Source: an uncultured Pseudomonadota bacterium
GTDB lineage: Bacteria; Myxococcota_A; UBA796; JAFGLY01
NCBI GenBank assembly: GCA_937912125.1
Contig: CALDOK010000280.1
Span: 1-64,000 of the forward strand
DNA: 64,000 nt
Direction of reading: 5' to 3'
The position numbers and the translations under genes were made by a program. The notes under the pieces are model-generated. The model saw only the letters and a program-made list of their open reading frames with translations. It did not search any database and had not been told where the DNA came from. Below are positions 39,542 to 62,458 of this stretch, in pieces; positions within the stretch are counted from its first letter, which is position 1; each line of letters begins with the position of its first letter.

Positions 39542-39638
39542 GGACGACCTCGCTGCGGAGAGGCGGGGCCGGGGCCCGGAAAGTGCTGTATGGCAGCCTA
39601 TCACAGCGCCTGGTCCGGCGGGCCCTCGGCCCTCGAGC

Positions 39639-40718: not shown

Positions 40719-40752
40719 GGAGAGCTCCGGGCGGGGATAGATGAAGAGGTGT

Positions 40753-40769: not shown

Positions 40770-40794
40770 TATCGAATGTGCCACTTTCAGTCAA
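40766..40794 (-). promoter_or_regulatory. recA promoter
   Basis: Minus strand TTGACT (40794-40789), exactly 17 bases, TATTGC (40771-40766). The -35 matches five of six. Transcription would start near 40759, giving a leader of about 40 bases. Confidence 0.55.
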
Positions 40795-40905: not shown

Positions 40906-42600
40906 GTGTACAGGCGGTGGGTCGAACGGATCGGGGCGCTCTTGATCGGCTTGGTGGTGCTCCTGACGCTGGTGGAGTCCGGCCTGAGGATCGCGGGCTG
41001 GCTCGCGCTCCAGCGGCGGGACGCCCCAAGGGCCGCAGATCTGACCGTGCTTTGCGTGGGCGACTCCTACACCTACGGGCTTGGGGCGCCCATGGGGCAG
41101 GGCTATCCGGGGCAGCTCGAGGAGCTGCTGGCCCAGGCGGCCGGTGGGCGGAGCGTCGCGGTGATCAACCGCGGCATCCCCTCCGCCACCAGCGCCAGGG
41201 TGCTCCGAGAGCTGCAGCAGTCTCTGCCAGGCGGGGGCTTCGACGCCGTCGTGGTGTTGGCCGGCGGCACGACCACCATCCTCCCCTCGCTGCCGCTGCC
41301 CACCCACCCCTCGAAGGCCCAGGCCGTGGCTGGCCTTCGCCTGGCGCGTCTGCTGCCCATGCTAGGCCGCGACCTCCAGGGTGAGCGGCTGCGGCGTATG
41401 CTCCCCAGGGACCGCCTGGGGCCTGGGCTCGCGGGCATCGTCGAGCGGTTCTCGGTGGGCGCTGGCCCCGACTCGCCCCCCGAACCTTCCTGTGGCCAGC
41501 GGGCGCAGCGGCACTGCGCGCGCGCCGCGGGCCTGCTCGAGCTGGGTTGGGTGGGCAGCGCCGAGGCCGTCTACCGCCAGGCGGTCCAGGTGGAGCCCAG
41601 CTGTGGCTGTGGCCACCGGGGCCGGCTGCTCGCCGCGGTCAGCGCCAACGATCCCGTCGCTGTGGACGCGGCCAGCCTGGGCTGGCTGGCGGCTTCGCCC
41701 GGGGATCCCATGCTGCACGATGTCCGCATGTCCTACCTGATCGAGACCGGGCGGATCGCCGACGCCTCGGCCTGGCTCGACGACAACGGCGCTCGGTTCC
41801 CGGATCACCTGCAGCCCGCCTGGCTGCGCGCCGATCTGCACCTGCGTCTGGGTGACCTGGATCGGGCCGAGGCGGCCTACACGGCCTTGCTCGATGACCC
41901 TGGTATGCAATGCCAGGGCCTGCTCGGGCTGGTGCGGGTGTCGCTCACCCAGGGTGACAGAGTCGGGGCTGGGCAGTGGATGGAGCGCCTGCTGGAGCAG
42001 CCGGGTCCCTCATGCGCCCGCCCGGCACAGCTGGTGTCACTGAGCTGCTCCCTCGGCATGCACGATCATGCCATGGAGCAGTTCCGGATCAAGCTCGTAG
42101 AAGACCCCGCGTCGTGGATGGGCGCGCTCTTTGCCCTCGCGCCATGCGTCCAGGAGAGCGACCTCACCGAGCTTCGGTGGCTGCTCACCAACTCCGGGGT
42201 CTCGATGGCCGATGTCGAGGAAGTCATGGGTGGCGTCAGCGCCGATGGCAGGCTGCGCGCGGGGGGACACGCAGCTGTCCGTGCCGACCTCGCGCGGATG
42301 CAGGCTCTGGCGGCCCAGGCTGGCGTCCCGATGATCTTGACGACCTACCCATACCCGAGCCGTGTCAACACGATGATCCGCGAGCTCGCCCAGGCCCAGG
42401 GCATCGGCTTGGCCGACAGCGCCCTGGCCTTCGAGGGCCTGTGGGCCCGCGGTGAGCCCAGGGCACGCTACTTCGTGGGGGATGGCGACGATCCTGTGCT
42501 CGGCAACGACCACTGCTCCGAGGCAGGCTACGGCGTCATGGCCGAGGTCTTGCTCGGGGCCCTCGAGGCCGCCGGCGTGCTGGACGCTCAGGATCAGTAG
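40906..42600 (+). CDS. membrane-anchored SGNH-hydrolase-like protein with TPR-like middle
   Basis: 564 residues. One N-terminal membrane segment (RIGALLIGLVVLLTLVESGL), then an SGNH/GDSL block I CVGDSYTYGLGAP with the nucleophile Ser, a helical repeat region (about 190-430) with TPR-like spacing, and a C-terminal block V HCSEAGYGVMAE. The Asp usually three residues before that His is instead next to it, so activity is uncertain. SGNH proteins of this shape act in glycan acetylation or deacetylation. Start GTG 40906 after AGAGAGG. The stop overlaps the stop of the convergent CapA gene by seven bases. Confidence 0.7.
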   Translation: MYRRWVERIGALLIGLVVLLTLVESGLRIAGWLALQRRDAPRAADLTVLCVGDSYTYGLGAPMGQGYPGQLEELLAQAAGGRSVAVINRGIPSATSARVLRELQQSLPGGGFDAVVVLAGGTTTILPSLPLPTHPSKAQAVAGLRLARLLPMLGRDLQGERLRRMLPRDRLGPGLAGIVERFSVGAGPDSPPEPSCGQRAQRHCARAAGLLELGWVGSAEAVYRQAVQVEPSCGCGHRGRLLAAVSANDPVAVDAASLGWLAASPGDPMLHDVRMSYLIETGRIADASAWLDDNGARFPDHLQPAWLRADLHLRLGDLDRAEAAYTALLDDPGMQCQGLLGLVRVSLTQGDRVGAGQWMERLLEQPGPSCARPAQLVSLSCSLGMHDHAMEQFRIKLVEDPASWMGALFALAPCVQESDLTELRWLLTNSGVSMADVEEVMGGVSADGRLRAGGHAAVRADLARMQALAAQAGVPMILTTYPYPSRVNTMIRELAQAQGIGLADSALAFEGLWARGEPRARYFVGDGDDPVLGNDHCSEAGYGVMAEVLLGALEAAGVLDAQDQ

Positions 42601-44606
42601 GCGTTCACCGGCATCACGCGACGGCGCAGGGTGCAGGTGGCGTCGCCGTGTACGCGGAGGGTGTCGTAGCGCGTGGTGTCCTCGGGGTGGGCGGGTGCCC
42701 ACTCCACAAGGCGCAGGGCGTCGATGTCAGCGTGGGCCCGGCCCCGCTCGGGTGGCTGGAGCTTCAGGTACAGGTTGACCGCGTGAGCGCCGGGAGGAGG
42801 CTCGAGATCCAGGCTGAACGGGGTCCAGTCCTGGGTGGCGTCGAGGCTGTGGTAGCTCTGCTCGAAGCTGGAGCCGCTGCTGCCCTCGTACCAGGAGACC
42901 TGAAGCTCGACCTGGCCTCGGGTGCGGAGCTGACCAGCCACGGTGAGGGAGGACCCCTCCGCGACGGGGATCCGGTGGGCGGGCTGCGTCCAGACCGCCT
43001 GAGTGTGGGAGGCGTCGCGGCTCAGGCGCAGGCCGTAGGAGCCGCTGTAGGCGGCCTGGTCGCTGATCCACTCGTAGGAGGAGTCCAGGGTCCAGAGGAA
43101 GCCCTCGGCCAGATCGTCGTCGACGTCGATGTCCTCGAAGTCTCCGACCCGCAGCAGGTCCACGCCCAGCTGCCAGTCGTCTGCGCCCTGGACCTGGCCG
43201 AGCCAGCCGTCGCGCAGGTCCGCGGGGTAGGACCATGCGTCTCCCCGCGCGGTCAGCTCGAGCTGTCGCTCCTCGAGCACCGAGCGGCCATGCAGGTCGA
43301 CCTCGAGGGCCCCGCCGTCGAGAGCCATCCCGGCGGCGGAGGCGCCGAGCAGGTCGCGGGCGATGCGCTGGCGCGGCCAATCGACCACGGCCATGGGGCT
43401 CAGGCTGTCCCGCATCAGCGGCTCGAGGAACATGCGCTTCAGCGTGCCATCGCGGTCCACGTGGACCTCGATCAGCGCCGAAGGGAAGCTGTCCCAGAGC
43501 GCCAGATCCGTGGCGAAGGGTCCCAGAGACTCGATCACCACGCCCTGGCCGCGGATGGACAGGCCGCCCGCCACCCGAGGGTGGTGGTTGATGACCAGAT
43601 CCGCGCCCCCTTCCAGGGCTCGCTCGGTGAGGCTGGCCATGGCCTGGGTGGGCTCGGGATCCCCCGAGAGGCCACCGTGGATCTGCAGCACCACGAAGTC
43701 TGCCTGCTCGGAGGCCAGGGCCAGCTGCGCATCCAGCCAGCGCCAGTCGCAGGCGGCGGCCCCCCCGTGGCCCTGCTCGTCGTCGGCCACCAGGCCGATG
43801 GCGTAGTCGCTGCCGGTGACGGTGGTGCAGCCCAGCAAGGCCAGCCGCAGATCGCCCACGTCCCGGTAGGCGGGTTGCCAGGCCGCGGCTTGGTCCAGGC
43901 CCGCGCCCTGGCTGGACAGCCCGGCGTTCTCGATGGTGGCCAGGGTCTCCACCAGGCCATGCTCCAGCAGGTCGTAGACGTGGTCGTTGGCCAGGTGCAA
44001 GAAGTCGATGCCGGCGCGAGCCAGGCCGAGGGCCGCCAGCGGTTGGTTGCGGTAGATGGCGGACTTCTCGGGGTGCTGCTCGGGGTGGGCGCTCAGGGGG
44101 CCCTCGAGGGCCAGGTTGCTGAGCTGAACCCCCTCGAGCATGGGCAGCACGCCCTGGAGGGTAGCGGGGATGTCGGTGATCTCGTGCCCGCTGCGGATGC
44201 TGCCAGTGTGGGCGGGGTCGTAGAAGCCGGGGCCGAAGGTGGTGGAGCCCAGGAAGCTGAGCCGAACGGTGCCGCCGTCGCTCTCGGACAGCCGAAACAG
44301 CGCCGCCTCGGCGGGCCCAGCGGGGCGCACCCTGGACAGGTAGCCGTCGGCCTCGACCATCAGCCAGTGGTTGCCCTGGAGCCTGGAGGTCTCGAAGATG
44401 CCCTGGGCGTCGCTGGTGACCTGATAGTCCCAGGAGCCGTCGTCGAGCACAGAGACCCGCGCGCCCCCGAGGGGATCGCCGTCCATGTCCACGATCTGGC
44501 CGGTGATGCGCCCCGCGGCGGGGTCGACGCCGTAGATGTCAGCGTTGCAGCCGACGCTGGCGAGGGCGAGGGCGAGGAGCGCGATGGGGTGGGGCCTGCG
44601 GAACAT
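42594..44606 (-). CDS. CapA/PgsA-like lipoprotein (poly-gamma-glutamate system)
   Basis: 670 residues. Lipobox LASVGC (Cys20); residues ~25-110 look like a carboxypeptidase-regulatory-like beta domain (GRITGQIVDMDGDPLGGARV); then a CapA metallophosphoesterase-like domain: FLGSTTFGPG (normally GDxML, so the first Asp is Ser), LANDHVYD, LQIHGG, INHHPRVAGG and ESLGPF; the last ~200 residues are a beta-sandwich carbohydrate-binding-like domain. PgsA/CapA is needed to make and export poly-gamma-glutamate. The chain is about twice the usual length. Eight bases after the response regulator gene. Confidence 0.8.
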   Translation of the reverse strand: MFRRPHPIALLALALASVGCNADIYGVDPAAGRITGQIVDMDGDPLGGARVSVLDDGSWDYQVTSDAQGIFETSRLQGNHWLMVEADGYLSRVRPAGPAEAALFRLSESDGGTVRLSFLGSTTFGPGFYDPAHTGSIRSGHEITDIPATLQGVLPMLEGVQLSNLALEGPLSAHPEQHPEKSAIYRNQPLAALGLARAGIDFLHLANDHVYDLLEHGLVETLATIENAGLSSQGAGLDQAAAWQPAYRDVGDLRLALLGCTTVTGSDYAIGLVADDEQGHGGAAACDWRWLDAQLALASEQADFVVLQIHGGLSGDPEPTQAMASLTERALEGGADLVINHHPRVAGGLSIRGQGVVIESLGPFATDLALWDSFPSALIEVHVDRDGTLKRMFLEPLMRDSLSPMAVVDWPRQRIARDLLGASAAGMALDGGALEVDLHGRSVLEERQLELTARGDAWSYPADLRDGWLGQVQGADDWQLGVDLLRVGDFEDIDVDDDLAEGFLWTLDSSYEWISDQAAYSGSYGLRLSRDASHTQAVWTQPAHRIPVAEGSSLTVAGQLRTRGQVELQVSWYEGSSGSSFEQSYHSLDATQDWTPFSLDLEPPPGAHAVNLYLKLQPPERGRAHADIDALRLVEWAPAHPEDTTRYDTLRVHGDATCTLRRRVMPVNAY

Positions 44607-44614
44607 GGCGTGGT

Positions 44615-45019
44615 TCAGGGGAGGAGGCCGCGTTCTGCGACGATGGACTCGAGCCGCTGCGCCAGGCCGGCCATGGTGAACGGCTTGCAGATCAGCCCGT
44701 GGGCGCCTGAGCGCTCCACCAGCTCTGCGCCTACGGTGCGGGCTGCGGAGGTGACGAAGACGATGGTGGGCGAGGGAGCCTCGGCGCCCAGGGCGGCGCG
44801 CCAGGTCTGAAACTCGCGGACTACGTCGAAGCCGTCCTTGCCGGGCAGGAGCAGGTCGACCAGCATGAGGTCCCAGCGCTCTCCGCGGGCCCTGGCGAGG
44901 CCCTCGTTGCCGTCGGGCGCCACGGTGACCTCGGCGGCCCCCATGCGGCGCAGGGTGAGATCGAGGACGCTGGCGACGTCGGGATCGTCCTCGATGATCA
45001 GCACGCGTCCGAGCTGCAT
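44615..45019 (-). CDS. receiver-only response regulator (CheY-like)
   Basis: 134 residues, a single receiver domain: acidic pair IEDDPDVASVL, phosphoacceptor Asp in LMLVDLLLPGKDGF, Thr/Ser switch VTSAART and Lys in CKPF. No output domain, so it works by binding. ATG 45019 has a strong GGGAGG. It lies between the CapB-like and CapA-like genes and could be the partner of the sensor at the head of the locus. Confidence 0.88.
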   Translation of the reverse strand: MQLGRVLIIEDDPDVASVLDLTLRRMGAAEVTVAPDGNEGLARARGERWDLMLVDLLLPGKDGFDVVREFQTWRAALGAEAPSPTIVFVTSAARTVGAELVERSGAHGLICKPFTMAGLAQRLESIVAERGLLP

Positions 45020-45091
45020 GGAACCTCCCTGTGGCCTGGACATGGCTGCACACCCGTATCCCTGCTGCGCCATCCCGCCACCCGAGGGCCC

Positions 45092-48000
45092 CTATGGGAG
45101 CAGGCCGGTTTCGGGGCTGGCGTCCTCGTGGCGCTGGCGCTGGGCGATCTTGGCGAGCTCCCGTGCTGCGCGCGCGTGGGAGATGCGCGTGGCGGCCAGG
45201 TCGCGCCAGATGCGGTCGGCATGCCAGCGACGGAAGAGCGCGTCGAAGGGGTCCCAGACCAGCCAGGCCATGTCCACCACCCAGCTGCGCAGGGAGAAGG
45301 TCTGCACCCGCATCTGGAGCTGGGTCCGTCTGCGCTCGAGCTCGCTGCCCACCAGCTCCTGCACCGAGGATCGCGCCTGGGAGGTGTTGCCGTCGGCGCC
45401 CATGGCGGCCAGGGCTCGCAGGACCTCCTGGCAGGTGGGGATGGACCACTCGCGCCACCGCTCGAGGCGGGACAGCGCGGCCAGCTGGACGGAACGATCC
45501 GGGTGGAAGAGGTCCTCGGCCCAGCGCAGGGGCTGCGCGGAGTGGACCCAGCGGTAGACGAAGTCCAGGCCGGTGCCCTTGATGTTCTGGATGCCCATCA
45601 CCCGCAGGGTGGCGCCGGCGGGGCAGGAACGGGCCACCACATCGATGATCTGGTCGCCGCTGGCGTCGGCCGAAGGCACGAACACCAGGTGGCTCTGGAA
45701 GATGCCGCGGAACAGGGACCTGGCGGCCCTGCGGAGCTCCAGCTGGCGCTCCTGGGATAGTGGGCGCGCCTGGGAACTCTCCACCAGCAGCGAGCGGGGC
45801 TCGGGTACATCCTGGACCATGACCTGGGCCGGAGTAGCCCCGAAGAGTGGGAAGTCCAGCCCAGGGTCGGTGTCCTCGGCGGGCAGCGCGGCGATGACCT
45901 CTTCGTCTTCCGGTCCGGACCAGAACAGGGCCTCGGCGTGGCTGACCTCGTCCTCCTCGAGCAGCTCGGTGACGTCGTCGTCCATGGGCGGCAGCGCCAC
46001 GGCGGGTGGAGGTGGTGGCGCGCTGACGCCGGGAGACTCCTGACCCATGCAGGCCAGGCGGAGGGAGGCGAAGGCGAGGGCCTCGGCCGCCAGCCCGAGC
46101 CAGAGGTCCGCCAGCCTGTCCAGGCCCCGGTGGTGATCCTGCTCGTCGTGGAACAGGGGCGCGTCCAGGCGTGGGGTGACCGCAGAGCTGGTGGGGGAGC
46201 TGAGCTGGTCGAAGACGCCGCCGGCCTTTGCGGCCAAGGCCTCGAAGGCCGGCTGCAGGTGTGCGAGGCGCTCTCGGGCGCTGCCCAGGCCCATGGGCTC
46301 GGCCGGGGCGGCCTGCAAGGCGGCCTCCAGGGCGTCGGCGGCGCGGGTGACCTCGGCCGGGGGCAGGCCCAGCCCGCTGGCGGTGGCCCGGAGCATGGCC
46401 CCCGGGTCCACGATGCGCAGGAAGTCCGCCATGGCGTCGAGCCGGTCGCCGATGGACGGCAGCCCGCCCGCGAAGGGGTCCAGGCGCTCGAGCCGCTGCT
46501 CCAGGGCCTCGGCCAGGTAGCTCTTCAGCCCCTCGAGGTTCGAGCCGATGATGACGTGGCGGTGGGCGGGCGCGTCGTTGGCCATGATCTCGGCGAAGAT
46601 GCGCGAGCGCGGGACCCGGTCGCGCCGGTTGTTGACCACGGTGACCAGGAAGGTGTCGGCCTGGGTGCGGGGGTTCCAGGAGGAGAAGCCGGCGCGCTGC
46701 CAGTTGTTCAAGAAGCCCGTGCGCTCGTTGGCGGACATGCCGTTGACCAGCTCCACCACGCGCCCCAGGTGCCGCATCGGGCCGTAGCTGGCCAGGGCGC
46801 CGAGATCCGGCACCACGTGATCGGCCATCATCACGATGGCCTCTTCGGGGGGGATGCCGAGGACCTCGGCCATGCTGGCCACCAGCGCTACGTTGGCGGG
46901 GTGCTCCTGGTAGGGGATGCGCGAGAGCAGGTCGCTGGGCAGGCTCGAGACGTGCTCCTCGGTGAGCGCGACGAGGTGGGTGTCGCGCTGTGCGCAGCGG
47001 TCTCGCAGCACGGGGAGCATCTGCTGCTCGGTGCTGATGAGCAGGCTCTTGCTGGGCACGAAGCTGGCGATGGTCTCGGCGACGTGGCGGCCCGTGGGGC
47101 CCTGCACGTCTTCGTGGTCCGGGTAGGTGTTGGTGATGGTGGAGAGATCGTCCCGGGTCCACCACAGCTGCAGCTGCTCGACGTAGTCGGGCCGCAGAGC
47201 CATGCACTCCCACAGGAAGATGGGCGAGCCCAGCCGTGAGGCCAGATCCAGGGTGTCGGCGTGCTCCCAGATGGTGGCGCGCTCGTAGGGCCGGTAGAGG
47301 AACAGCTCCGTGGCGCGCCCGCCCGGGGGCGCGTGCAGCAGCATGGCCTCGCAGCCGGTGGTCTTGCAGATGGCGTCGTAGCCTAGCCCCTGGAACACGG
47401 CGGCCTTGAGGCGCTCCGTGCCGCTCTTGCCGCGGGTGCCCCAGCCGCCCATCACCAGGGGGATGCTCTTGCGCGCCCTGCGGGTGCGGTGGAGGTACCA
47501 GCTGAGGCGCCCGAAGAAGACCACCGCCAGCGCGACGCAGACCGTGGCCAGCTCGGAGGGCAGGTTGTGGCGCACGCCCACCAGCGAGCGGAAGCTCTCC
47601 CACAGCAGGGGGGCGCCTACGCCCAGCACGCGGATGCTGCGGCCCGGATCGGCCCCCCCAGAGCCGTCGCCGGAGGGGTCGGGGTCGGGCTGCTCGAAGT
47701 ACTGGAACAAGCCTGCGTAGACCTGCGGCTGGTCGTCGTGTGCGTCGAAGTGGGTGTGGTAGCCGTGGCGCTCCAGGCGCTGCACGTAGCGGAAGCGCTC
47801 CCGGTGCTCGTTGGCGGCCAGGGCGTGCTGGCGCTGTAGGTCCAGTCCGCTCATGCTCCAGGTGAACCAGAAGGCGTTGATGAGCCGGCGGCCCCAGTTG
47901 GCAGGAGACTGGATGGTGGTCACGCCCTCGCGGGACACCACCACAGTGCTGCCGTGACCCAGGGCGTCGAGGTAGTCCTCGGGCTGGGGCAGCCAGGGCG

Positions 48001-49546
48001 CCCAGCTGCCCCAGGCCGCGGAGAACACCCGCTGGTTGGGGACGCCGGTGGCGCTGACCTCGGCCATGCGGGCTGGCGGCACGCGGATGGCGCCGTGCAT
48101 GGTGGCCCCAGAGACGTGGTCGCCCACCTGCCGCTTGGCGGGGCCGGGGTGCCTGAGCTCGTGGATCATGCGCCACAAGCGCGGCACGGGCGCGACGCCG
48201 CGGTACACGGTCACCCGGCCTCTGCGGCGGGGTTGGATGGAGAAGCCGTGGTCGTGCTCGGCCCAGGGCAGCAGCGCCCGGGCCAGGTCGACAGGATCGG
48301 CTTCGTCGGGCAGCTGCAGGGTGCGGGACCGACCCTGGGTGATGCGCGCGGCTTCCTGCGCCAGGGCTGCCAGCTCGGCGTCCAGGGCATCTCCGCGGCC
48401 CGCGCCTGGCCGCGGTCGGCTGGTGTCTGCGGGATCGGGGATGTCTCGGGGGTCGCCCTCGCCCCGGCGCTGACCCAGGCGAGCGCGTGCATGCAGCCTC
48501 ACGGTCAGGGCCGGATCTTCCCGCGCCATGCGCTCGAGCTCGGTGATGGAGCCGTGATCCGTGCGCTTGGCCAGCCCGTCGGCCAGGGCGCAGCGGACGG
48601 TCTCGGAGGGGTCCCTTCTGGCCAGGGTGGCGGCGCGGCGCGCCACGGTGGTGGGTGCTTGCTGGCTGATGCGCGCAGCCTCGGCTCGGACCAGGAAGTC
48701 GTCCCGCGCCCAGGCGGCCAGCACCACATGGCCTTCCTCGGCAGCGCGCTGCTCAGCGGGGGTGAGCCGCTCGAGCAGCATGGCCTCCTGCTCGTCCGGC
48801 GCGACCACGAGCAGCACCCGGAGCGCCCGGCGGGCGGTGAGGGGATCGCCCTGACGCTGGCGCGCCACCTGCAGCAGCTGCCGGAGCAGCTCGGAGGGCA
48901 CGGCCTGCAGGCCGCCCACCTGGATGTGGTCGACCACCCAGGTGGTCAAGCAGGACACGGCGGCCCGCCGGGTGGGCAGGCGCGGGTCCGCCAGGAGGTG
49001 GCGTAGCAGGCCCACGCCCTGCTCCCGCAGGGGCAGCCCCTCGAGCAGGCAGCAGATGATCTCGAGCTCCACGCCCAGGTGCTCGATGCCTGCGTCCATG
49101 CGCTCGACCAGAGCGTCGGCGTCCAGCCAGCGCTTCATGGCCCGCAGGTCGCGGCGCAGGTCCATGCCGCCGCGGGTGGTGCGCAGGTGGTGGCGGAGCA
49201 GGGCCTGCAGGGCCAGGGTGTCCGGGGCGCGCCGCACCGCCTTGAGGAAGCCGGTGCGCGTGCGTTCGGCGTCCCGCCGCTGCTCGAGCACGCGCAGGCC
49301 TTCGCTGGTGAGCAGGTCGGCGATCTGGCTGACCACCTGCCCAGGCTGGCCTACGCGGGTGGGGGCGTCGTCGTCGCTGCTGGTGGGCTCGGGCAAGGCG
49401 CCGGTGGGAGAGGCCTGGGCCAGGCGTGCCGCGATCTCGTCGAGCTGCGGACCGCGCAGGCGGGCGAGCAGGGGGGGCAGCCGGCGGGCCAAGAGCTGGC
49501 CACCAGGGCTGGTGGGGCCGCCGCCGGGACGAACGAAGGGATTCAT
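45092..49546 (-). CDS. giant PgsB/CapB-like Mur-ligase protein with HEAT-repeat N-terminus
   Basis: 1484 residues. About 100-420 are helical HEAT/ARM-like repeats; a membrane segment (about 663-683, VCVALAVVFFGRLSWYL) then leads to a PgsB/CapB domain: P-loop GGWGTRGKSGTERL (Lys707), ICKTTGCEA, WECMALRPDY (near 778) and TNTYPDHEDVQGPT (near 804). In Bacillus, PgsB starts with the same membrane helix and P-loop and joins glutamates through gamma-amide bonds using ATP. The other ~400 C-terminal residues are acidic then helical and unassigned. ATG 49546 overlaps the stop of the 1352-residue protein as ATGA. Enzyme substrate inferred by homology only. Confidence 0.83.
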   Translation of the reverse strand: MNPFVRPGGGPTSPGGQLLARRLPPLLARLRGPQLDEIAARLAQASPTGALPEPTSSDDDAPTRVGQPGQVVSQIADLLTSEGLRVLEQRRDAERTRTGFLKAVRRAPDTLALQALLRHHLRTTRGGMDLRRDLRAMKRWLDADALVERMDAGIEHLGVELEIICCLLEGLPLREQGVGLLRHLLADPRLPTRRAAVSCLTTWVVDHIQVGGLQAVPSELLRQLLQVARQRQGDPLTARRALRVLLVVAPDEQEAMLLERLTPAEQRAAEEGHVVLAAWARDDFLVRAEAARISQQAPTTVARRAATLARRDPSETVRCALADGLAKRTDHGSITELERMAREDPALTVRLHARARLGQRRGEGDPRDIPDPADTSRPRPGAGRGDALDAELAALAQEAARITQGRSRTLQLPDEADPVDLARALLPWAEHDHGFSIQPRRRGRVTVYRGVAPVPRLWRMIHELRHPGPAKRQVGDHVSGATMHGAIRVPPARMAEVSATGVPNQRVFSAAWGSWAPWLPQPEDYLDALGHGSTVVVSREGVTTIQSPANWGRRLINAFWFTWSMSGLDLQRQHALAANEHRERFRYVQRLERHGYHTHFDAHDDQPQVYAGLFQYFEQPDPDPSGDGSGGADPGRSIRVLGVGAPLLWESFRSLVGVRHNLPSELATVCVALAVVFFGRLSWYLHRTRRARKSIPLVMGGWGTRGKSGTERLKAAVFQGLGYDAICKTTGCEAMLLHAPPGGRATELFLYRPYERATIWEHADTLDLASRLGSPIFLWECMALRPDYVEQLQLWWTRDDLSTITNTYPDHEDVQGPTGRHVAETIASFVPSKSLLISTEQQMLPVLRDRCAQRDTHLVALTEEHVSSLPSDLLSRIPYQEHPANVALVASMAEVLGIPPEEAIVMMADHVVPDLGALASYGPMRHLGRVVELVNGMSANERTGFLNNWQRAGFSSWNPRTQADTFLVTVVNNRRDRVPRSRIFAEIMANDAPAHRHVIIGSNLEGLKSYLAEALEQRLERLDPFAGGLPSIGDRLDAMADFLRIVDPGAMLRATASGLGLPPAEVTRAADALEAALQAAPAEPMGLGSARERLAHLQPAFEALAAKAGGVFDQLSSPTSSAVTPRLDAPLFHDEQDHHRGLDRLADLWLGLAAEALAFASLRLACMGQESPGVSAPPPPPAVALPPMDDDVTELLEEDEVSHAEALFWSGPEDEEVIAALPAEDTDPGLDFPLFGATPAQVMVQDVPEPRSLLVESSQARPLSQERQLELRRAARSLFRGIFQSHLVFVPSADASGDQIIDVVARSCPAGATLRVMGIQNIKGTGLDFVYRWVHSAQPLRWAEDLFHPDRSVQLAALSRLERWREWSIPTCQEVLRALAAMGADGNTSQARSSVQELVGSELERRRTQLQMRVQTFSLRSWVVDMAWLVWDPFDALFRRWHADRIWRDLAATRISHARAARELAKIAQRQRHEDASPETGLLP

Positions 49547-53601: not shown

Positions 53602-54494
53602 GGCGCGCGCTCCGCGAGCTGGGTGAGCGCTTGCCCCAGGGCGGCTCGACGCTGGAGGTCGGCCACCAGGACGCGCCTGGCGGGCAGGGACAGCTCGATG
53701 TGCAGGAAGCGGGCCTGGCCGGTGATGGCCTGGGCCTGAGCGTTGGTGCGGGCGGCGAGCTCGGGCACATCGTCGCCGGTGCCGAGGGAGCCGAAGCTGT
53801 CGAGCACTGGCTGCAGGACCTGGCGGGCGGCTTGGAGCTGGGAGTCGGGCTGGAAGGTGGCACCCTCGGAGAGCACCGCGGCGTAGGCTCCGTGGTCCGT
53901 GCCGAAGCCGTGGATCTGCACGACGAGCGGATCGTTGAGGGCATCGACCACGCCCAGGGTGGCGGCCTGGAACACCGACTCGGCCCGGTGAGCCACGTCG
54001 GCACCCAGCTGGCCCGCGTGGGCCGAAGCGTCCCCCTGGGAGGGGGCGTGGCGCTGGGCGCTGTTGAGCAGCAGGACTCGCCCGTAGCCGGCCTCGAACA
54101 GCGCGCAGGCCAGCTTGCCCGTGTCGAGGTCGAACCAGGCGTGGGGGGCCTGGATCACCAGGGGAGCTGCGACGGCGCCCTTGCGGACGACGTAGAAGCC
54201 GTCGGCCAGCTCGGGCTTGCTGGAGATCACGACCCAGCTCTCCTCCTCGCGGAGCACCAGGCCGGCGGCCTCGGCGCGCCGCTGGGCGCTGGCGGGGATG
54301 GTGCCGGTGGAGGCACCGCGGACGACATCGGCCATGACCGCCCGAACCTGGGCGCGACGCCAGGCGGAGGCGTCGGAGTAGCCATGGTCGTTGCGGAGCT
54401 GATCGACCTGCGGCCACAGGCTCGCGGCCCCGAAGGCGGCGGGCGTCAGCCCCAGGAGCACCAGCAGGGGGATGATCAGCGCGTGAGCTCGCAC
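53598..54494 (-). CDS. exported 298-residue protein, possible polymer hydrolase
   Basis: 298 residues, GTG start 54494, signal peptide LIIPLLVLLGLTPAAFG. The core has PLVIQAPHAW (His118) and, 77 residues on, VVQIHGFG (His195), with AHRAES between; this order resembles zinc amidohydrolases such as N-formylglutamate amidohydrolase or poly-gamma-glutamate hydrolase, but I cannot confirm the family. The same block seems to occur twice in the PgsC-like protein. Its stop overlaps the next start (ATGA); its start overlaps the preceding gene by 19 bases. Confidence 0.65.
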   Translation of the reverse strand: MRAHALIIPLLVLLGLTPAAFGAASLWPQVDQLRNDHGYSDASAWRRAQVRAVMADVVRGASTGTIPASAQRRAEAAGLVLREEESWVVISSKPELADGFYVVRKGAVAAPLVIQAPHAWFDLDTGKLACALFEAGYGRVLLLNSAQRHAPSQGDASAHAGQLGADVAHRAESVFQAATLGVVDALNDPLVVQIHGFGTDHGAYAAVLSEGATFQPDSQLQAARQVLQPVLDSFGSLGTGDDVPELAARTNAQAQAITGQARFLHIELSLPARRVLVADLQRRAALGQALTQLAERAP

Positions 54495-56956
54495 TTGACC
54501 TCCTTGGCCCAGTGTTCGGGGAGCGAGGGTTCTGCGTTGCCGTCGGTCGCCTCGAAGCGCAGGTAGACCGGCGTGGGGCGGTCGGTCTCGGCGATGTGCA
54601 CCGTGAGGATGTGCTGGCCGGGGACCAGATCGTCGCCCAGGACCAGGCGCACGCCCTCCCAGGCCACCAGATCGCCGAAGTCGCTGTCCTCGAGGCGCGC
54701 GATGCGCCCGGTGCGTGCGGGCTCGATGGTCCGGTTGGCCCGGGTGAGCACCGTGGAGGGGCCTCCGTGCCGGCGAGGGCGGCCCCCGTCGAGCTCGGTG
54801 ACGATGGTGGGCGGCTCGGCCCAGGTGGGTGTGTAGGGGCGCACGTAGACCACCGCCCGCCCGCTGCCATGGGCCTGCACTGGGAGCTCCAAGGTGGTGG
54901 CGTCGGCCCGGAACACCTGCCTGCGGGTCCAGCGGTCGCCATCGCCGGGAGCCCGGGCCAGGTAGGCGCCCATGGGGCCCTCGATGCTGCAGGTGTGCTC
55001 GCCGGGCGCGAGGCCCGCGAAGTGCAGGATCCCCGCGGAGGCGTCCAGGCGGAGCTGGACGCTGCGGTCGTCGCAGCTGAGGGTGGCGGCTTGGCCAGCG
55101 CTGCCGCTGGGCACGCGGAAGTCGACCGTCAGCTCGCCGGTGGGAGGGATGGTCAGATCGGTGTCGCCGGCGATCTGGGTGCGGTGCCAGGGCTGCCAGG
55201 CCGCGCCGTTGCGGAAGCGCTCCATCAGGGGGTAGCTGGGCGGCTCCCCCGTGGGCAGGAGCAGCTCGGTGGACAGCGCCTGGTAGCCGGCGCTGCGGCT
55301 GGAAGGCTCGATGCGCACGGTGGCGTCGATGCGCATCAGGCGCTGTTCTTCGATGAGCTGCTCGGAGTTCAGGGGCGCCAGCGAGATGTAGGGCGCCAGC
55401 TCCCAGGGCGCGAAGCGGCCGGTCCAGCCGTCTGGAAGATCGTAGGGCTCGGCGCGCTCGGGCTCGTTCTCGATGGGGACCAGGAAGCGCAGGTCCACCG
55501 GGCCGTCGGAGGAGAACTCGAGGGTCGTGGCCTGGAAGGGGTGGAAGAGGTGGACCTGGGTCTCCTCGGAGACCCACGGCCAGGGGTTCTCCACGTAGGT
55601 CTCGAAGGGAGCGTGCTCGAAGCGAGCCTCGAAGCTGCCTTCGCCCAGGTTGTGCCCCTCCTCGTCGTAGGCGGTGTAGCTGACGGTGACCGGAGGCATC
55701 TCGAGGGGGGCCTCGGCGCCGTCGAGATCGTCGGGATCCTTGGCGGGGTCGTGCCCGGGTCCGGCGCGCGCGACCCAGGCGTCCGGAGGCAGCGGCCGCG
55801 CGTCGACCCTCAGGGATCCCCAGTCGGCGCCGGTGGCTACGGGTACGACGATGGGCACGAGCCCGTGGTCGGAGCGGAAGTGGGCCAGGCGCCGCAGCTC
55901 GGGCGCTTGGGGTTGTTCGGCGCCGGCGCCGGGGGGCTCACCCCAGGAGTGACTCGCCGGGGGGCTGACCGTGAAGCGCATCAGGACGTCCTGCTGCTCC
56001 CACGGGTTGGTCCAGCGGATGCTCCACAGGGCACCTGCCGGGACGTCCCAGCGGAAGGCGCTGAGGTCCTGGTCGTCGAGCGCCTTGGGGCGCAGGGAGG
56101 CATCCACCAGCGAGGTGTCGAGGGGCACGCCCTTGGCATGCTGCCCGGGCTCGGGATCGGCCAGCTCGGTGGCCACGTTCAGGGTGCAGGGGCCCACGAG
56201 GTTCACGGCGGTGGCGTGGCCTGTGGGGAGCAGGAAGCCCTCGGTGGTGACCGTGGGCGCGGCCGAGGGGGGCGCCAGGCGATGCAGCGGCACGCTCTCC
56301 GCGGTCTGGGACTCGGCGTGCAGGCGCTCGCGAATCCAACCCATCACGTTGCTGCGCTCGGCAGGCTCGAGGTTGTCCCACTCGAAGGGGTAGACCGCCT
56401 GGGTGCGGACCTCTTGTTTCTCGGGGGATCCGAAGAGCCGGGTCTGCTCGAGGGGCTGGGTCTCCCGCTCGCGGTAGATGCGCAGCAGCAGGCGCTGGTC
56501 TTGCTGCTCGAGCAGCGGGCGCACCTTCAGCATCCCCCCTTCGGGGAGCAGGTGGCCCGGCTCGATCTCCAGGATGCGGCTGTCGGTGACCACGCGGTCG
56601 GCGTAGGGGGACTGCAGCGCCCGGGCCCCGTCCGGCAGGATGGTGCGGCGGGAGCGGGTCCAGTGCTCCCGGACCAGGGGCTCGCCGTCGGTGGGCTCGA
56701 GGGTGAGCTCGAGGCCGTACAGCCAGGTGAGGGTCTCGTCGTCCACGCCCGGGTCCGGGGTCTCGAGGTGGGCCAGGATGCGCAGCCTGGGCTCGTCGGC
56801 CAGCAAGCGGATGTCCACGTCCTGGCCAGGGGCCAAGGCGTAGTACAGCTCTCGCATGCCTGGAGGCTCGCGCTCCTTCTCGAGCTGTGCCATGGCCAGC
56901 AGCGCCACCAGGGTGCCCACCACCAACCAGCCCAGCAGGGGCAGGACGTGCCTCAT
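54476..56956 (-). CDS. inner-membrane-anchored beta-rich periplasmic protein
   Basis: 826 residues: an N-terminal membrane helix (VLPLLGWLVVGTLVALLAMA) and a large periplasmic part made of several beta domains, with regular patterns such as VDIRLLADEPRLRILAHLET and LPVQAHGSGRAVVYVRPY. No catalytic motif. Could be a scaffold linking the synthase in the inner membrane to the outer-membrane protein. Start ATG 56956 overlaps the PgsC-like stop as ATGA. Confidence 0.72.
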   Translation of the reverse strand: MRHVLPLLGWLVVGTLVALLAMAQLEKEREPPGMRELYYALAPGQDVDIRLLADEPRLRILAHLETPDPGVDDETLTWLYGLELTLEPTDGEPLVREHWTRSRRTILPDGARALQSPYADRVVTDSRILEIEPGHLLPEGGMLKVRPLLEQQDQRLLLRIYRERETQPLEQTRLFGSPEKQEVRTQAVYPFEWDNLEPAERSNVMGWIRERLHAESQTAESVPLHRLAPPSAAPTVTTEGFLLPTGHATAVNLVGPCTLNVATELADPEPGQHAKGVPLDTSLVDASLRPKALDDQDLSAFRWDVPAGALWSIRWTNPWEQQDVLMRFTVSPPASHSWGEPPGAGAEQPQAPELRRLAHFRSDHGLVPIVVPVATGADWGSLRVDARPLPPDAWVARAGPGHDPAKDPDDLDGAEAPLEMPPVTVSYTAYDEEGHNLGEGSFEARFEHAPFETYVENPWPWVSEETQVHLFHPFQATTLEFSSDGPVDLRFLVPIENEPERAEPYDLPDGWTGRFAPWELAPYISLAPLNSEQLIEEQRLMRIDATVRIEPSSRSAGYQALSTELLLPTGEPPSYPLMERFRNGAAWQPWHRTQIAGDTDLTIPPTGELTVDFRVPSGSAGQAATLSCDDRSVQLRLDASAGILHFAGLAPGEHTCSIEGPMGAYLARAPGDGDRWTRRQVFRADATTLELPVQAHGSGRAVVYVRPYTPTWAEPPTIVTELDGGRPRRHGGPSTVLTRANRTIEPARTGRIARLEDSDFGDLVAWEGVRLVLGDDLVPGQHILTVHIAETDRPTPVYLRFEATDGNAEPSLPEHWAKEVKCELTR

Positions 56957-59796
56957 GGGGCGTCCTCCCGCTGCAGGGCGGCCGTGCGGCCGTACAAGCG
57001 CACCTCGGCGCTGTCGGCGGGGTTGTCGGTCAGCTCGCCCCCGGCCCGGGCCAGGGCGGCCACCAGGCGGTGCTCGCGGCCCTCGATGACCAGGTAGGGC
57101 AGGCCATCGTCCCGATCCAGGAAGGCGCGCACCTGCATGCCCCGGGCGCGGGCGAGGCGCTGGAGCCGGTCCAGCTCGCCGGGATGCCCGGTGCGGGCGT
57201 TGCGCGCCAGGCTGGCCAGCAGGGGGCGGTACTCTTCGGCCGCGGCGGCGGTGTCCAGGGCGGGGGCCTGGAGCATGTCTTCGAGGACGCCATCACCGAG
57301 GCCGATGTGGGAGCCCTGCAGCAGGCTGCGCAGCGCCGAGGAGGTGTCGGGGGTGGAGAAGCGCTCCCGGAAAAGCGGGGAGAGGTAGACCGTGACGTAC
57401 TGGCCGCCGGTGTAGCGCACCACCTCGGCGCGAGGGTTGGAGGGGTCGTAGAAGCGGATGCGCTGGTAGTCGCCGTCGTACCAGACCACCGAGCCGCCGG
57501 AGCCCTCGACCAGCCTGCGCACGGGCTCGAGGTACTCGGGCACGCGGTCGCCGGTGCCCAGGGGGCGGCCGATGGAGATCACCGCGTCGGCGCCGGGGAA
57601 CTCATCCTCTCGGTAGGCGTCCACGGAGACCACCGTGGCGCCTGGGGTGTCCAGGGCCAGGGAGCGCAGCACGGACAGCTCCGGGCTGTGGGTGGCCGCC
57701 CGCTGCACGGCCTGGGCGTCCAGATCCGCGCCCGCGTCGTGTACCAGGATGGCCGAGGCCTGGGTGCCGGCCCACCAGGTGCGGGCGACCTCGACGGCCA
57801 GGTGATGGCGGTGGGCTGCGCGGACCTCGTAGATCACCGGATCACCGCCCACGCGGCGCAGCCAGAGGGTGTAGCGAGGCGGGGCCTTGTCCGAGGCCGG
57901 CCCCAGGGTGATCAGCTCGTCGTCGGCGCTGACCTCCAGCCCCAGGCGCTCGGCCTGGGCGGCGGCGAGACGCAGCCAGCGCGGATCGCCAAGGCGGGCC
58001 TGGAGCAGGGGCTCCACCACGGCGCGGCGCAGGAACAGCAGGTCGGGCACCCGATCGGCCTCGGACTCATCCTGGGCCGAGGGTGGGAAGGGTTGCCCGT
58101 TGGGGTCGTACAGGGCGATGCGCTCTGGAGCCAGCTGGCCGTCGAAGCGCCGCAGAGCCAGATCGAGGAGGGTGGGCTCGTCCACCAGCAACCTGGCATG
58201 GGCCGGGGCGTCGGAGGGCAGATCCCAGGCGGGCACCAGGTCGGGGATGACGGCGGAGAGGCGCTTGAGGTCGATGGCGTCGGGCAGGCGTCGCGCCACG
58301 GTGAAGGACGAGGCCGGAGCTGCGTGCAGCTCGAGTACGGCCATGCCCGGCTCCATGGCCTGGCGGCGCAGGGCGGAAGCGGGGGACAGCAGCAGGACGC
58401 TTGCGTCGAGGACCTCGGCCAGGGCCACGCCTGCCTCGGCCAAGCCCGGTGTGCTGGCGGCGTCGGGCACCACGACCATCAGCTGCAGGCCGGTGTGGCT
58501 GCGCAACCAGGCGGCGCCGAAGAGGTTGTGACCGCCGGAGTGCAGCACCACCCCGTCGGGGTACACGTCGGCGCGGAGGTAGTCGCCGGCGTAGGGGGCG
58601 CCGGTGCGGGCGACCTTCCACGCGTCTCGCAGCTCCACGAGCACGGTGGTGTCGGGGAACTCGGCGGGTGGCAGGGCCACCTCGGTGACCGCGGCCCAGG
58701 CTGGGCCCGCCCGCTGGTCGATGGCGGCCGTGATGCGGTCCTGGGGCAGGGGGCGCAGCTGCTCGAGCCCCACGCCCAGGGTGGTGCCCACCACGAAGGC
58801 GCCCAGGGAGATGAACAGGGCCGGGAAGATGACCCTGGGCAGGCTGCCGTACCGCCAGCAGCGCACGGCGATCAGCGCCGGGAGCAGGTAGCCGAAGCCG
58901 AACAGGTCGGTGATGCGCAGCCCTGGGTACTTGTCGGCGAGCCCGAAGGACAGCAGCAGCTTGACGGCGTAGCTGGCGGTGAACGCCAGCACCAGCGGGC
59001 GCATGCCGGTGAGGTTCGCCGTGCGCACCACGGGCAGGCGCTGGATGATGCGCAGCGCCCCCACGATCAGCAGGACCTCGACCAGGGTGGCCACCAGCTT
59101 CTCGGGGTGGACCCAGGTGATGGCCAGCAGGCCCGGGATGATGATGCCCCCGGCATCCCAGCCATACCGAACGGCCATGTGGGTGGCCATGAGCGCCCCC
59201 ACGAGCAGCAGCATGTAGGCGCGGGGGGAGGAGATGAAGTCCCGGCTGAGGTCTTCGTAGGTGAGCTCGAACTGGGCGAAGCTCAGGTTGGTGTGGGGGA
59301 GCAGGACCCAGAGCAGCAGCAGGTAGACCAGCAGCGTGGGCGCCGCCACCATGGGCAGCCCCTTGTACAGCCCGGTGCGCCAGATGGCGTTGGCGGTCAG
59401 GGGCACGAGCACCAGCCCCAGCGAGTTCAGGGGGGTGATCAGGGGCATGCCGGCCTGATCCATCAAGGACATGAAGGGGCCGCCCTCGACGAAGAGCCGG
59501 ACCCCGACCGACACCAGCAGGATGAGGAAGAAGCGGTTGCGCCCGAAGGCGCGGTCCAGGGGCACGATGCGCGGCAGCCCCTTGGCCAGCAGCGCGGCCA
59601 GCCCGTAGGTGAGCACCGCCTCGGCCAGCACCACCAGGCCTGCCCGGGGCTGGATGATGAACACGCCCGCCAGGTAGCCAGGGACCACCAGGCCAGACTG
59701 GGGCCACCCGTAGAGCTCGGTGAGAATCCAGATGACAAGCACGCCGATCAGCACAGCAGTGAGCAGGCTGTTGTCGACGTAGGCGCTCGGGAACAC
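56953..59796 (-). CDS. PgsC/CapC-like protein, duplicated membrane unit plus C-terminal domains
   Basis: 947 residues. Residues ~10-340 hold about nine membrane segments in two copies of a PgsC unit: GLVVPGYLAG (35-44) with LTYGLAALLAKGLPRIV, and GIIIPGLLAI (217-226) with VLLIVGALRIIQRLP. PgsC normally has one such unit (about 150 residues) and works with PgsB as the synthase. The remaining ~600 residues are soluble, probably periplasmic, with two weakly related blocks VVLHSGGHN ... LELH and VIYEVRAAHRHH ... VSVDAY. GTG start 59796. The fusion is far longer than any PgsC I know. Confidence 0.8.
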   Translation of the reverse strand: MFPSAYVDNSLLTAVLIGVLVIWILTELYGWPQSGLVVPGYLAGVFIIQPRAGLVVLAEAVLTYGLAALLAKGLPRIVPLDRAFGRNRFFLILLVSVGVRLFVEGGPFMSLMDQAGMPLITPLNSLGLVLVPLTANAIWRTGLYKGLPMVAAPTLLVYLLLLWVLLPHTNLSFAQFELTYEDLSRDFISSPRAYMLLLVGALMATHMAVRYGWDAGGIIIPGLLAITWVHPEKLVATLVEVLLIVGALRIIQRLPVVRTANLTGMRPLVLAFTASYAVKLLLSFGLADKYPGLRITDLFGFGYLLPALIAVRCWRYGSLPRVIFPALFISLGAFVVGTTLGVGLEQLRPLPQDRITAAIDQRAGPAWAAVTEVALPPAEFPDTTVLVELRDAWKVARTGAPYAGDYLRADVYPDGVVLHSGGHNLFGAAWLRSHTGLQLMVVVPDAASTPGLAEAGVALAEVLDASVLLLSPASALRRQAMEPGMAVLELHAAPASSFTVARRLPDAIDLKRLSAVIPDLVPAWDLPSDAPAHARLLVDEPTLLDLALRRFDGQLAPERIALYDPNGQPFPPSAQDESEADRVPDLLFLRRAVVEPLLQARLGDPRWLRLAAAQAERLGLEVSADDELITLGPASDKAPPRYTLWLRRVGGDPVIYEVRAAHRHHLAVEVARTWWAGTQASAILVHDAGADLDAQAVQRAATHSPELSVLRSLALDTPGATVVSVDAYREDEFPGADAVISIGRPLGTGDRVPEYLEPVRRLVEGSGGSVVWYDGDYQRIRFYDPSNPRAEVVRYTGGQYVTVYLSPLFRERFSTPDTSSALRSLLQGSHIGLGDGVLEDMLQAPALDTAAAAEEYRPLLASLARNARTGHPGELDRLQRLARARGMQVRAFLDRDDGLPYLVIEGREHRLVAALARAGGELTDNPADSAEVRLYGRTAALQREDAP

Positions 59797-59862
59797 TGTG
59801 AGCAGGACGAACCCCTGGCTACGGCACGACGGAGCCGTGCTGACGACCCATGCTACCGGATG

Positions 59863-59884
59863 CCCCTCGCTGAGCCAAGCGGGG
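59863..59884. terminator. hairpin between sensor and PgsC-like gene
   Basis: CCC-T-CGCT pairs with AGCG-GGG around a GAGCCA loop, one bulged T, in the 93-base gap between the sensor gene and the PgsC-like gene on the minus strand. It may be an attenuator lowering expression of the synthase genes relative to the sensor. No T-run. Nothing else visible in 59797-59889. Confidence 0.35.
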
Positions 59885-59889
59885 CCTCA

Positions 59890-62322
59890 TCACGCCTCGG
59901 ACAGCTGGATGCGGATGCGCGCTCCCTGTTCGCCGCCACCCTCGACTACGAAGCTGCCGCCCATGGCGGTGATCAGGCGAGCCGCTTGCGCTGAGCCCTG
60001 GTCCCTGGCGTCGGTGGCGAGGCGCTGAAGCACGTGCAGTGGAGGTGCATGGCCTTCGGTGCGCACCAGGATCTCCACCGCGCCCGCGGGGGCATGGAGC
60101 TCCACCAGCACCGCTTGTTCGGTGGTGGTGTCCCGAGCCAGCTCGTGGATCAGGGACATGAGCGCCCGGGCCAGATCGTGCCGGTTGGCCAGGGCGGGCG
60201 CCAGGGCCACAGGGGTGTTGATCAGCCGCACGCGGTGCTCGCCCAGGGTGCGGCGGGCGCCGGCGACGACCTCCTGGAGCAGATCGATGACCTGGATGGG
60301 CTCGGAGGCCCCGCCCTCGCCGGAGCGGGCGACATCCTCGTAGCGATCGAAGATCTCGGCCATCTCACCGCAGCGCGCGGCGATGCGGGGCGCGACCTCG
60401 GAAGCCTCTACCGCCCCTAGGGACAGCAGATCGGCGTAGCCGCGGATGGCCGCCAGGATGTTGTGCACGCGGTAGGAGATCATCTCGAGCAGGCCGGACT
60501 TCACGGTGTCCTGGGCCTGAAGCTCGGAGATGTCCACCAGCTCGACCCCCACGCCCAGGATTCGGTTCTGGTAGGTGCAGGGGTAGATCCAGCAGTCCAT
60601 GCCCACCCCCGGGAGGTCGAGGCTCTCCCGGATGGGCGCCCGGCCCGAGAGGGCCTGCACCAGGGAGCGCTCAGGCAGCTGCAGGGCTCGCCAGACCGTG
60701 GGGAGATTCGCCTCGAGGGGCACCGCCAAGCGCTCGAGGAGCTGGCGGAAGCCTTCGTCCACCAGCATGGGGAGTCCCAGCGGGTCGAACAGGGCGTGGG
60801 CCGTGCGGCTGTCCTGGTGGGATGCGAGCAGCAGGTCGCGCTGATCCAGCAGGTGCTCGAGGCTGGCGGTGAGCTCGTGCAGGCGCGCACGGATGCCCTG
60901 CTCGGCGACCACGCTCTGCATCGCGGCGCGGGTGCGGCCGCGGGCGGTGCGCAGGGCCGCCTGGTTGGCGAAGATCTGGAGGTTGTGGCGGCTGGCGGCC
61001 CCCAGGTCGATCAGCTCGCCGGTGCTGGTGGTGCGCGGGGCTTGATCGGCGGACCCGAGCAGGCGCACCAGCAGCAGGCCTCGGTTGCGGCCGTCGGCCC
61101 GCATGGGCACCGCCAGCAGGGGCCGGGGTTCGCCGGCGCCGGGGTTCGCGATGGGCCATGCAGGCAGATCGAGGGGGTCGGTGAGGTTGGCGTGGACGTG
61201 CTGATCGAGCTTGTCGGCCAGCTCGTCGGGCTGGGTGCCCGCCACGTCGCCCGCTCGTGCGCGGGGGACCAGGGAGGAGCCGCGGCGTTGGAAGACCCAG
61301 GCGGCGTCGGCCCCACCCCAGGACACCGCGGCCCGCGCTAGATCCTTCCACGCGGACTCGGGCTTGGCGGCGGTGCTGCCCAGGCCTTCGCCCAGGCGGC
61401 TGAGCAGGTTGTCCTGCAGGCGCTGCAGCTGCAGCTCCGCGTTCTGGTAGGTGGTGGCCCGCCAGGTGAAGGCCGAGGCGGCGATGCCGGCCAGCAGCAC
61501 CTCGACGGGCATCACGGTGCCCGCGTGCAGGAACGCAGCCGAGGCCGCGACGGCCGCCACGACGCAGCCGCCGAGGAAGGCCGTGCGTGCGCTGTTGGCC
61601 CGCAGCAGCAACAGGCTGAGGGTGAGCACCAGCGCCAGGATGCAGGCGATGAGCCCAGCCACCGGTGATGAGAGCACGGGGAGGTCGGGACCGGCCACCA
61701 CCCGCGCCACGGCCTCGGCCAGGGCCAGGCGGGCACCGGGCACGTCCACCGAAGGGCTGGCCCAGGGGTCGAGGGCTCCGACCACGGCGATCCTGCCCTC
61801 GAGAGCGGCGCTGTTGAGGCCGGCCACCTGGCCGTGGTCCAGGCTGGGGACCCCCACCGGGGCGATGGGGATGCGCTGTTGACGGCTGGGCACGGGCAGG
61901 CCCGCGGCCTCGAGGATGCGCGCGGGGAGGCTGGGGGAGCTGCCAACCATGGGCTGCCAGGTGCGGTAGCGGTGGTCCCAGTCGTAGGCGAAGCCGGACT
62001 CGGTGAGGGCCGAGCCCGGGCTGATGAGCTGGACGACGTCGTCGTCCGCCAGGACGGGGATGCTGTCGCCCACCAGCACTACGGCGGCCACACGGCCTTC
62101 CCGCAGCTGAGTGGCCATGCGGATCCATGCCCCCGGCGAGGCGTGGGCGTCCATCTCGACCAACAACACCTGTCGCTGCACCGCGGGGGCCAGATCCCAG
62201 CGCAGCATGAGGTCCGTGAGGGGCTGAGGCGACATCTGCAGCAGGCCGCCCAACAGGGCGGCGATGAGGGCCGCGATGGCGCTGCGGATGATCAGGGCTT
62301 TGAGGCGGAGCGAGCGGCGCAA
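59890..62322 (-). CDS. CHASE2-type membrane sensor, degenerate histidine kinase
   Basis: 810 residues. An N-terminal membrane helix, a CHASE2-like extracytoplasmic domain (about 45-215, YDWDHRYRTWQPM), three membrane helices, a GAF/PAS-like middle, then SYRVHNILAAIRGYADLL with the phosphoacceptor-type His620 followed by Asn not Glu. The ATPase part keeps the fold but lacks a normal N-box (SLIHELARDT) and the DxGxG (VRTEGHAPP), so ATP binding is doubtful. Probably a sensor or scaffold without kinase activity, or a very divergent kinase. TTG start 62322 with GAGGAG upstream. First gene of the locus. Confidence 0.82.
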   Translation of the reverse strand: MRRSLRLKALIIRSAIAALIAALLGGLLQMSPQPLTDLMLRWDLAPAVQRQVLLVEMDAHASPGAWIRMATQLREGRVAAVVLVGDSIPVLADDDVVQLISPGSALTESGFAYDWDHRYRTWQPMVGSSPSLPARILEAAGLPVPSRQQRIPIAPVGVPSLDHGQVAGLNSAALEGRIAVVGALDPWASPSVDVPGARLALAEAVARVVAGPDLPVLSSPVAGLIACILALVLTLSLLLLRANSARTAFLGGCVVAAVAASAAFLHAGTVMPVEVLLAGIAASAFTWRATTYQNAELQLQRLQDNLLSRLGEGLGSTAAKPESAWKDLARAAVSWGGADAAWVFQRRGSSLVPRARAGDVAGTQPDELADKLDQHVHANLTDPLDLPAWPIANPGAGEPRPLLAVPMRADGRNRGLLLVRLLGSADQAPRTTSTGELIDLGAASRHNLQIFANQAALRTARGRTRAAMQSVVAEQGIRARLHELTASLEHLLDQRDLLLASHQDSRTAHALFDPLGLPMLVDEGFRQLLERLAVPLEANLPTVWRALQLPERSLVQALSGRAPIRESLDLPGVGMDCWIYPCTYQNRILGVGVELVDISELQAQDTVKSGLLEMISYRVHNILAAIRGYADLLSLGAVEASEVAPRIAARCGEMAEIFDRYEDVARSGEGGASEPIQVIDLLQEVVAGARRTLGEHRVRLINTPVALAPALANRHDLARALMSLIHELARDTTTEQAVLVELHAPAGAVEILVRTEGHAPPLHVLQRLATDARDQGSAQAARLITAMGGSFVVEGGGEQGARIRIQLSEA

Positions 62323-62367: not shown

Positions 62368-62458
62368 GGGCCTGCCGCGGGCGAGCGCCGGGTGCTCGTG
62401 GCCGCTCATGGGATATGCGAGTCCTGTGGTCGCCGGCCTCCCCTCCAGACCAGGGCCC

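Follow-up and report, generated by a model that had tools for sequence, protein, structure and literature searches.

In Bacillus subtilis, PgsB and PgsC suffice for polymer production, and PgsA (CapA) is dispensable there (PMC6029982). Pairs of PgsB and PgsC are listed for 250 species of 58 genera in one survey, which cites Fusobacterium nucleatum as the first producer of polyglutamate among Gram-negative bacteria (PMC4497714). A second survey predicts poly-gamma-glutamate (PGA) systems for the majority of phyla and treats CapB and CapC as mandatory; its model names no outer-membrane part (PMC5542703). Here we describe a locus of an uncultured bacterium of the lineage Myxococcota_A (GenBank assembly GCA_937912125.1, 9.27 Mb in 527 contigs), which encodes enlarged relatives of PgsB, PgsC and CapA together with predicted periplasmic and outer-membrane partners. 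The locus lies at 42594-62322 of the window, by which we mean the whole stretch analysed, 64,000 bases that make up nearly all of the 64,663-base contig CALDOK010000280.1. We consider it likely that the locus encodes a machine spanning the envelope, which would produce an amide-linked polymer of the PGA type and export it by secretion of the synthase-dependent type.

The original prediction, made from the DNA letters alone, placed eight consecutive minus-strand genes here, and all eight reading frames were present. Read from high to low coordinates, they encode a sensor, PgsC, a protein with a large predicted periplasmic part (Peri), an exported putative hydrolase (Hyd), a protein with a predicted outer-membrane barrel (OMbarrel), PgsB, a receiver and CapA. 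The statement that most of them are coupled by 4-base overlaps has to be corrected: only three of the seven junctions (PgsC/Peri, Hyd/OMbarrel and OMbarrel/PgsB) are exact 4-base overlaps, while Peri and Hyd overlap by 19 bases and about 8 to 93 bases separate the genes at the remaining junctions.

Profile searches upheld the claimed kinship of the three core proteins with PgsB, PgsC and CapA, with a reservation for PgsB. The 1484-residue PgsB (45092..49546) matched the PgsB equivalog profile TIGR04012 over residues 671-1013 with 186.9 bits (E 4.6e-55), below the curated cut-off of 222.7. No other ligase family of Pfam or NCBIfam matched it, and sequence searches of the PDB returned HEAT repeats only, leaving the Mur-ligase core without a match. 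That core (46508..47536) contains a GGWGTRGKS P-loop, ECMALRPDY and PDHEDVQGP, so that both motifs named beforehand, GTRGKS and ECMALRPDY, were found. On the evidence of profile and motifs, this P-loop protein is assigned to the Mur ligases.

PgsB proteins were then compared among 284 genomes of one phylum, that of the window, mostly fragmented draft assemblies. TIGR04012 scores were bimodal. A canonical class, above the cut-off in 41 genomes, had mostly PgsB of about 400-440 residues scoring mostly 390-475 bits; a giant class comprised 26 proteins in 25 genomes, mostly of 1300-1700 residues, at 175-221 bits. Low-scoring matches in other genomes of the order fell mostly in the HEAT region and were disregarded. 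In a tree built from the ligase core, one branch with support of 100/100 separated the 26 giant from the 30 canonical proteins. Three genomes (G058, G214 and G003) possessed both types; in G003 the giant PgsB is encoded in two overlapping frames of 755 and 699 residues (L129 1766-6074), either a draft frameshift or a split gene. In the core, 44 positions were conserved at 92% or more in giant and canonical PgsB together, including G703, RGK 705-707, D810, H811 and D813 of the P-loop and DH.D motif, and the ligase chemistry should therefore be kept in giant PgsB.

The two classes also differed in their partners. Canonical loci within this phylum (for example in G116, G018, G103 and G058) have PgsB adjacent to PgsC, but the canonical PgsB has about 420 residues and its neighbour carries one CapC-like domain (about 150 residues in clean frames). 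Such a single-domain neighbour was found at 11 of 12 canonical loci, that is, wherever the contig continues, and Peri, Hyd, OMbarrel and the PgsC tail had no match at any of the 12. The separate clade and the different partners bear out the predicted distinctness from ordinary PgsBCA.

The enlargement noticed in every core protein can be accounted for. Residues 1-685 of giant PgsB comprise an N-terminal part of 640 residues, rich in arginine and bearing HEAT repeats, and then one membrane helix close to the P-loop. When sequences were aligned (alignment A5, 13 rows), the canonical C-terminal motif GNIGGQGL had, by eye, a counterpart in QNIKGTGL at the end of giant PgsB; the extra length is therefore the HEAT-bearing N-terminal part plus an insertion that precedes this final motif. 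The N-terminal part also holds a strongly conserved stretch, RxWRxLHELRHPxPxKRQ.

PgsC (947 residues, 56953..59796) is duplicated. Its two CapC membrane domains (59362..59748, E 1.6e-19; 58834..59202, E 4.6e-19) scored 73 and 72 bits with PF14102 against a gathering threshold of 27; the protein scored 127.7 bits with PF14102 and 59.1 bits with TIGR04011, and the PDB gave no match. The large soluble C-terminal part (56956..58680) was homologous to Hyd when separate, non-overlapping alignments were compared (hhalign probability 98.8, E 1e-16 for the whole part). It consists of two tandem, catalytically decayed copies of the Hyd fold, the second matched with probability 98.9 (E 1e-17) and the first with 91-95. 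At the positions of Hyd H117, D121, H194 and E266, the second copy in the window has A, H, D and Y, and should therefore be inactive. In each CapC repeat, basic loops (family means of 3.7, 1.9, 3.7 and 3.0 K+R) alternate with uncharged or acidic loops, and acidic residues mark the N-terminus, the link from one repeat to the next and the beginning of the tail. This charge pattern places the tail in the periplasm, the same compartment as the signal-bearing Hyd.

Hyd (53598..54494) starts with a GTG codon at 54494, preceded by a perfect AAGGAGGT. The original prediction had it as an exported possible hydrolase, in keeping with its signal-like N-terminal helix. It forms its own sequence family, with the motifs APHxxFD, HGF and FLHxELS and no Pfam match, and the searches of PDB and Pfam with its profile gave chance matches only; the fold was therefore taken from an AlphaFold2 model, with a predicted local distance difference test (pLDDT) score of 86.6. 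In the model, Hyd has a fold of the M14/N-formylglutamate-amidohydrolase type. The top PDB match by Foldseek was N-formylglutamate amidohydrolase 2q7s (E 4e-5), metallocarboxypeptidases were also matched, and so was the gamma-PGA hydrolase YndL with bound PGA (5onj, E 3e-4); viral zinc carboxypeptidases agreed with the assignment. Hyd is thus alike in fold to PghP/YndL and N-formylglutamate amidohydrolase, while its sequence family is separate. H117, D165, H194, N250, H264 and R272 were invariant in the family alignment and D121 and E266 nearly so, and H117, D121, H194 and E266 are candidate metal ligands and base.

The 1352-residue OMbarrel (49543..53601) is exported, and a structure model recovered the barrel suspected in it. 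TPR_9, a tetratricopeptide repeat (TPR) family, was matched by 3 of 15 OMbarrel members (best 7.9e-7), and the family profile found TPR proteins among the PDB entries. When residues 640-1352 were modelled with AlphaFold2, the result was a region of helices together with beta domains and the 14 long strands of a barrel, at a pLDDT of 79 overall and mostly about 90 in the barrel, which is itself confident. The predicted barrel spans residues 1071-1326 (49624..50391). Foldseek placed OmpG at the top of its list; the PgaA-type entry 4y25 ('bacterial polysaccharide outer membrane secretin') was fifth, with AlgE lower. These models point to a TPR-like helical region joined to an outer-membrane barrel, a candidate exporter. 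Peri (826 residues, 54476..56956) has one N-terminal membrane helix (residues 4-22) ahead of its large predicted periplasmic part; with an alignment of 20 rows (A6), it had no convincing relative in Pfam or PDB. Searched individually, the window's Hyd, Peri and OMbarrel belonged to no Pfam or NCBIfam family.

Of the eight genes, a smaller set recurs together. Profiles of the neighbours found PgsC, Peri, Hyd, OMbarrel and PgsB consecutive, in the same order and on a single strand, in 12 genomes from at least eight families (the window, G083, G030, G047, G058, G214, G223, G059, G035, G004, G044 and G133). Five genes in the same order in 12 genomes indicate that the gene set is not due to chance. 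In most other positive genomes the contigs were broken and the unit was found in pieces. Close relatives of the double-CapC PgsC occurred in 25 of the 284 genomes, mostly with 765-1340 residues, and one further genome, G003, had a fragment at a contig end. Giant PgsB and double PgsC were both present in 25 genomes and both absent from 258; one genome had PgsC only (G152, incomplete) and none PgsB only (Fisher 6e-35, uncorrected for kinship). With 26 of 284 genomes positive, the gene set is carried by roughly one in eleven of those sampled. A single scan of genome contigs matched one record only (G083, CAJXRZ010000018.1), and a plasmid search found no relative of Peri or OMbarrel. In G262 the giant system is present twice, on different contigs (L051 and L119; L042 and L120), and only one copy includes Hyd.

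The three other genes recurred to different extents. The sensor (810 residues, 59890..62322) has a CHASE2-like N-terminal part with GAF-like and weak HisKA-like regions (HisKA 0.004, GAF_2 0.008), and a sensor-like gene lay directly upstream of PgsC at many loci. Pfam CHASE2 was found in two of the upstream proteins. Two groups of them matched each other (E 1e-17); one group matched the pair from the window and G083 (E 2e-8, probability 95), the other not convincingly, and upstream proteins of three further genomes matched the joint sensor model. CapA (670 residues, 42594..44606) is a probable lipoprotein with a lipobox-like SVGC. Its PGA_cap domain (PF09587, 127.2 bits against a gathering threshold of 27, E 1e-36) is accompanied by a carboxypeptidase-regulatory-like domain (PF13620, E 3.3e-10) and a C-terminal extension, which explain its larger size. 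Related CapA genes were near seven other giant-type loci (G083, G215, G004, G059, G044, G243 and G262), and optional CapA fits the dispensability of PgsA in B. subtilis. The receiver (44615..45073) is a single-domain response regulator (PF00072, 2.6e-18) with only one further match in the loci of relatives. The conserved system is therefore the five core genes with a frequent CHASE2-type sensor; CapA is optional and the receiver local.

An inner-membrane synthase and a periplasmic hydrolase are parts of synthase-dependent exopolysaccharide operons, in which PgaA, BcsC and AlgK/AlgE serve polysaccharide export across the outer membrane and PgaB, AlgL and BcsZ are counterparts of the role proposed for Hyd. 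An outer-membrane-associated TPR protein is encoded in each of the poly-N-acetylglucosamine (PNAG), alginate, cellulose and Pel operons (PMC9384988). The present locus has the same ensemble of inner-membrane synthase, periplasmic hydrolase and TPR plus outer-membrane barrel in one operon as PgaABCD, AlgK/AlgE, BcsC and Pel systems. It differs in that a Mur-type amide ligase with PgsC replaces the glycosyltransferase, and in the M14/amidohydrolase fold of the hydrolase; family searches of the unit proteins found no processive glycosyltransferase within the five-gene unit. The likeness is architectural, the barrels being compared by predicted fold. With PgsBCA/CapBCA of Bacillus, the locus shares the invariants of the Mur-ligase core, the CapC domains and the CapA domain; it differs in having PgsB of the giant class, of 1300-1700 residues with HEAT part and insertion and below the equivalog cut-off, in the duplicated PgsC with a hydrolase-like tail, and in the outer-membrane and periplasmic partners.

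From the computed families, folds, gene order, co-inheritance, distinct clade and periplasmic side of the PgsC tail, we infer polymer formation, the direction of transport, the roles of the periplasmic parts and the kind of monomer as follows. Giant PgsB, with its Mur-ligase core at the cytoplasmic face, would activate and join amino-acid monomers. Duplicated PgsC would be the inner-membrane part, and its two dead hydrolase-like domains may hold the chain in the periplasm, a space that Peri may bridge from its inner-membrane anchor. The TPR-like region of OMbarrel would take the chain and pass it out via its own outer-membrane barrel, and Hyd, as an exported zinc-type amidohydrolase, would trim or clear it. 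The CHASE2-type sensor probably regulates synthesis. More tentatively, the locus may represent a previously undescribed synthase-dependent pathway, convergent in its architecture with the export of PNAG, alginate and cellulose, which would send an amide polymer other than PGA through both membranes, with the decayed hydrolase pair of PgsC as chain holder.

Several observations weigh against the proposed machine. All 26 giant PgsB proteins score below the TIGR04012 cut-off (175-221 bits against 222.7), and 11 core positions are fixed but different between giant and canonical PgsB, so that the monomer may differ from the canonical one. The topology of PgsB, in which 640 N-terminal residues precede a lone membrane helix, is unexplained. 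The predicted template modelling score of the OMbarrel model is only 0.45, which makes its domain placement uncertain, and the Hyd model also resembles the peptidoglycan amidases Rv3717 and Ami1 by Foldseek. Hyd is missing at the loci of G225 and G271 and from one of the two G262 copies; the unit is split in G024, G034 and G043, and PgsB is inverted in G020.

The locus could possibly be an ordinary PGA capsule system that departs from canonical PgsBCA by simple growth of its proteins and yields an identical product. This explanation is compatible with the proposed export mechanism and differs on the product only; the core motifs shared with canonical PgsB, the presence of CapA and the relation of the Hyd fold to YndL agree with it, while the separate clade, the different partners and the 11 switched core positions do not. 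The three genomes that keep both PgsB types argue against redundancy, although the product could nonetheless be the same. We consider it unlikely that the system modifies the envelope by attaching amino acids to an acceptor, either peptidoglycan or a lipid-linked one, with no long exported polymer, a barrel for some other purpose and Hyd as a peptidoglycan amidase. Membership of the Mur-ligase family and the amidase matches of Hyd would suit such a role, but PgsC pairing, CapA and the TPR-barrel protein fit polymer export better, and N-formylglutamate amidohydrolase heads the PDB matches of Hyd. A polymer kept in the periplasm as osmoprotectant or storage, with the barrel as a porin for nutrients or for release of Hyd-made fragments, is improbable, because TPR plus barrel in one protein within a synthase operon is the PgaA/BcsC pattern, even though the best barrel matches are general porins (OmpG) with exporters next.

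Around the locus, a gene for a GDSL lipase plus TPR protein (40906-42600, plus strand) is convergent with CapA and overlaps the CapA stop by 7 bases; its conservation was not seen at other giant-type loci. Adjoining are alaS, a T2SSE-type ATPase gene and recA in a row (35684-40784, minus strand), and a membrane glycosyltransferase gene (62408-63928, plus strand; PMT_2-like, just below cut-off) is divergent from the sensor gene. MopE-type copper-binding repeat proteins are encoded at 17173-18642 and beside several giant-type loci elsewhere (L041 5339-7081, L073 2080-3801 and L040 1303-3921). No RNA families or tRNAs were found within the window.

Set against the CapsuleFinder definition of PGA systems (CapB and CapC, with CapA/CapE accessory; PMC5542703), the locus has relatives of CapB and CapC together and a CapA, with CapB below the equivalog score, as judged with models other than those of CapsuleFinder. 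Giant PgsB proteins may sit unremarked in the lists of the two surveys (PMC4497714; PMC5542703). In the open-access literature, subscription journals being outside the search, neither this gene set nor a route of export across the outer membrane for such a polymer was found described. How a polyamide passes the outer membrane in Gram-negative carriers of PgsB and PgsC appears to be an open question, for which the gene set offers a concrete candidate exporter with named partners. The bacteria that carry it probably make an amide-linked surface polymer that is sent through both membranes, and two types of PgsB coexist within one genome. The locus suggests that the TPR-barrel plan of export is not restricted to polysaccharides.

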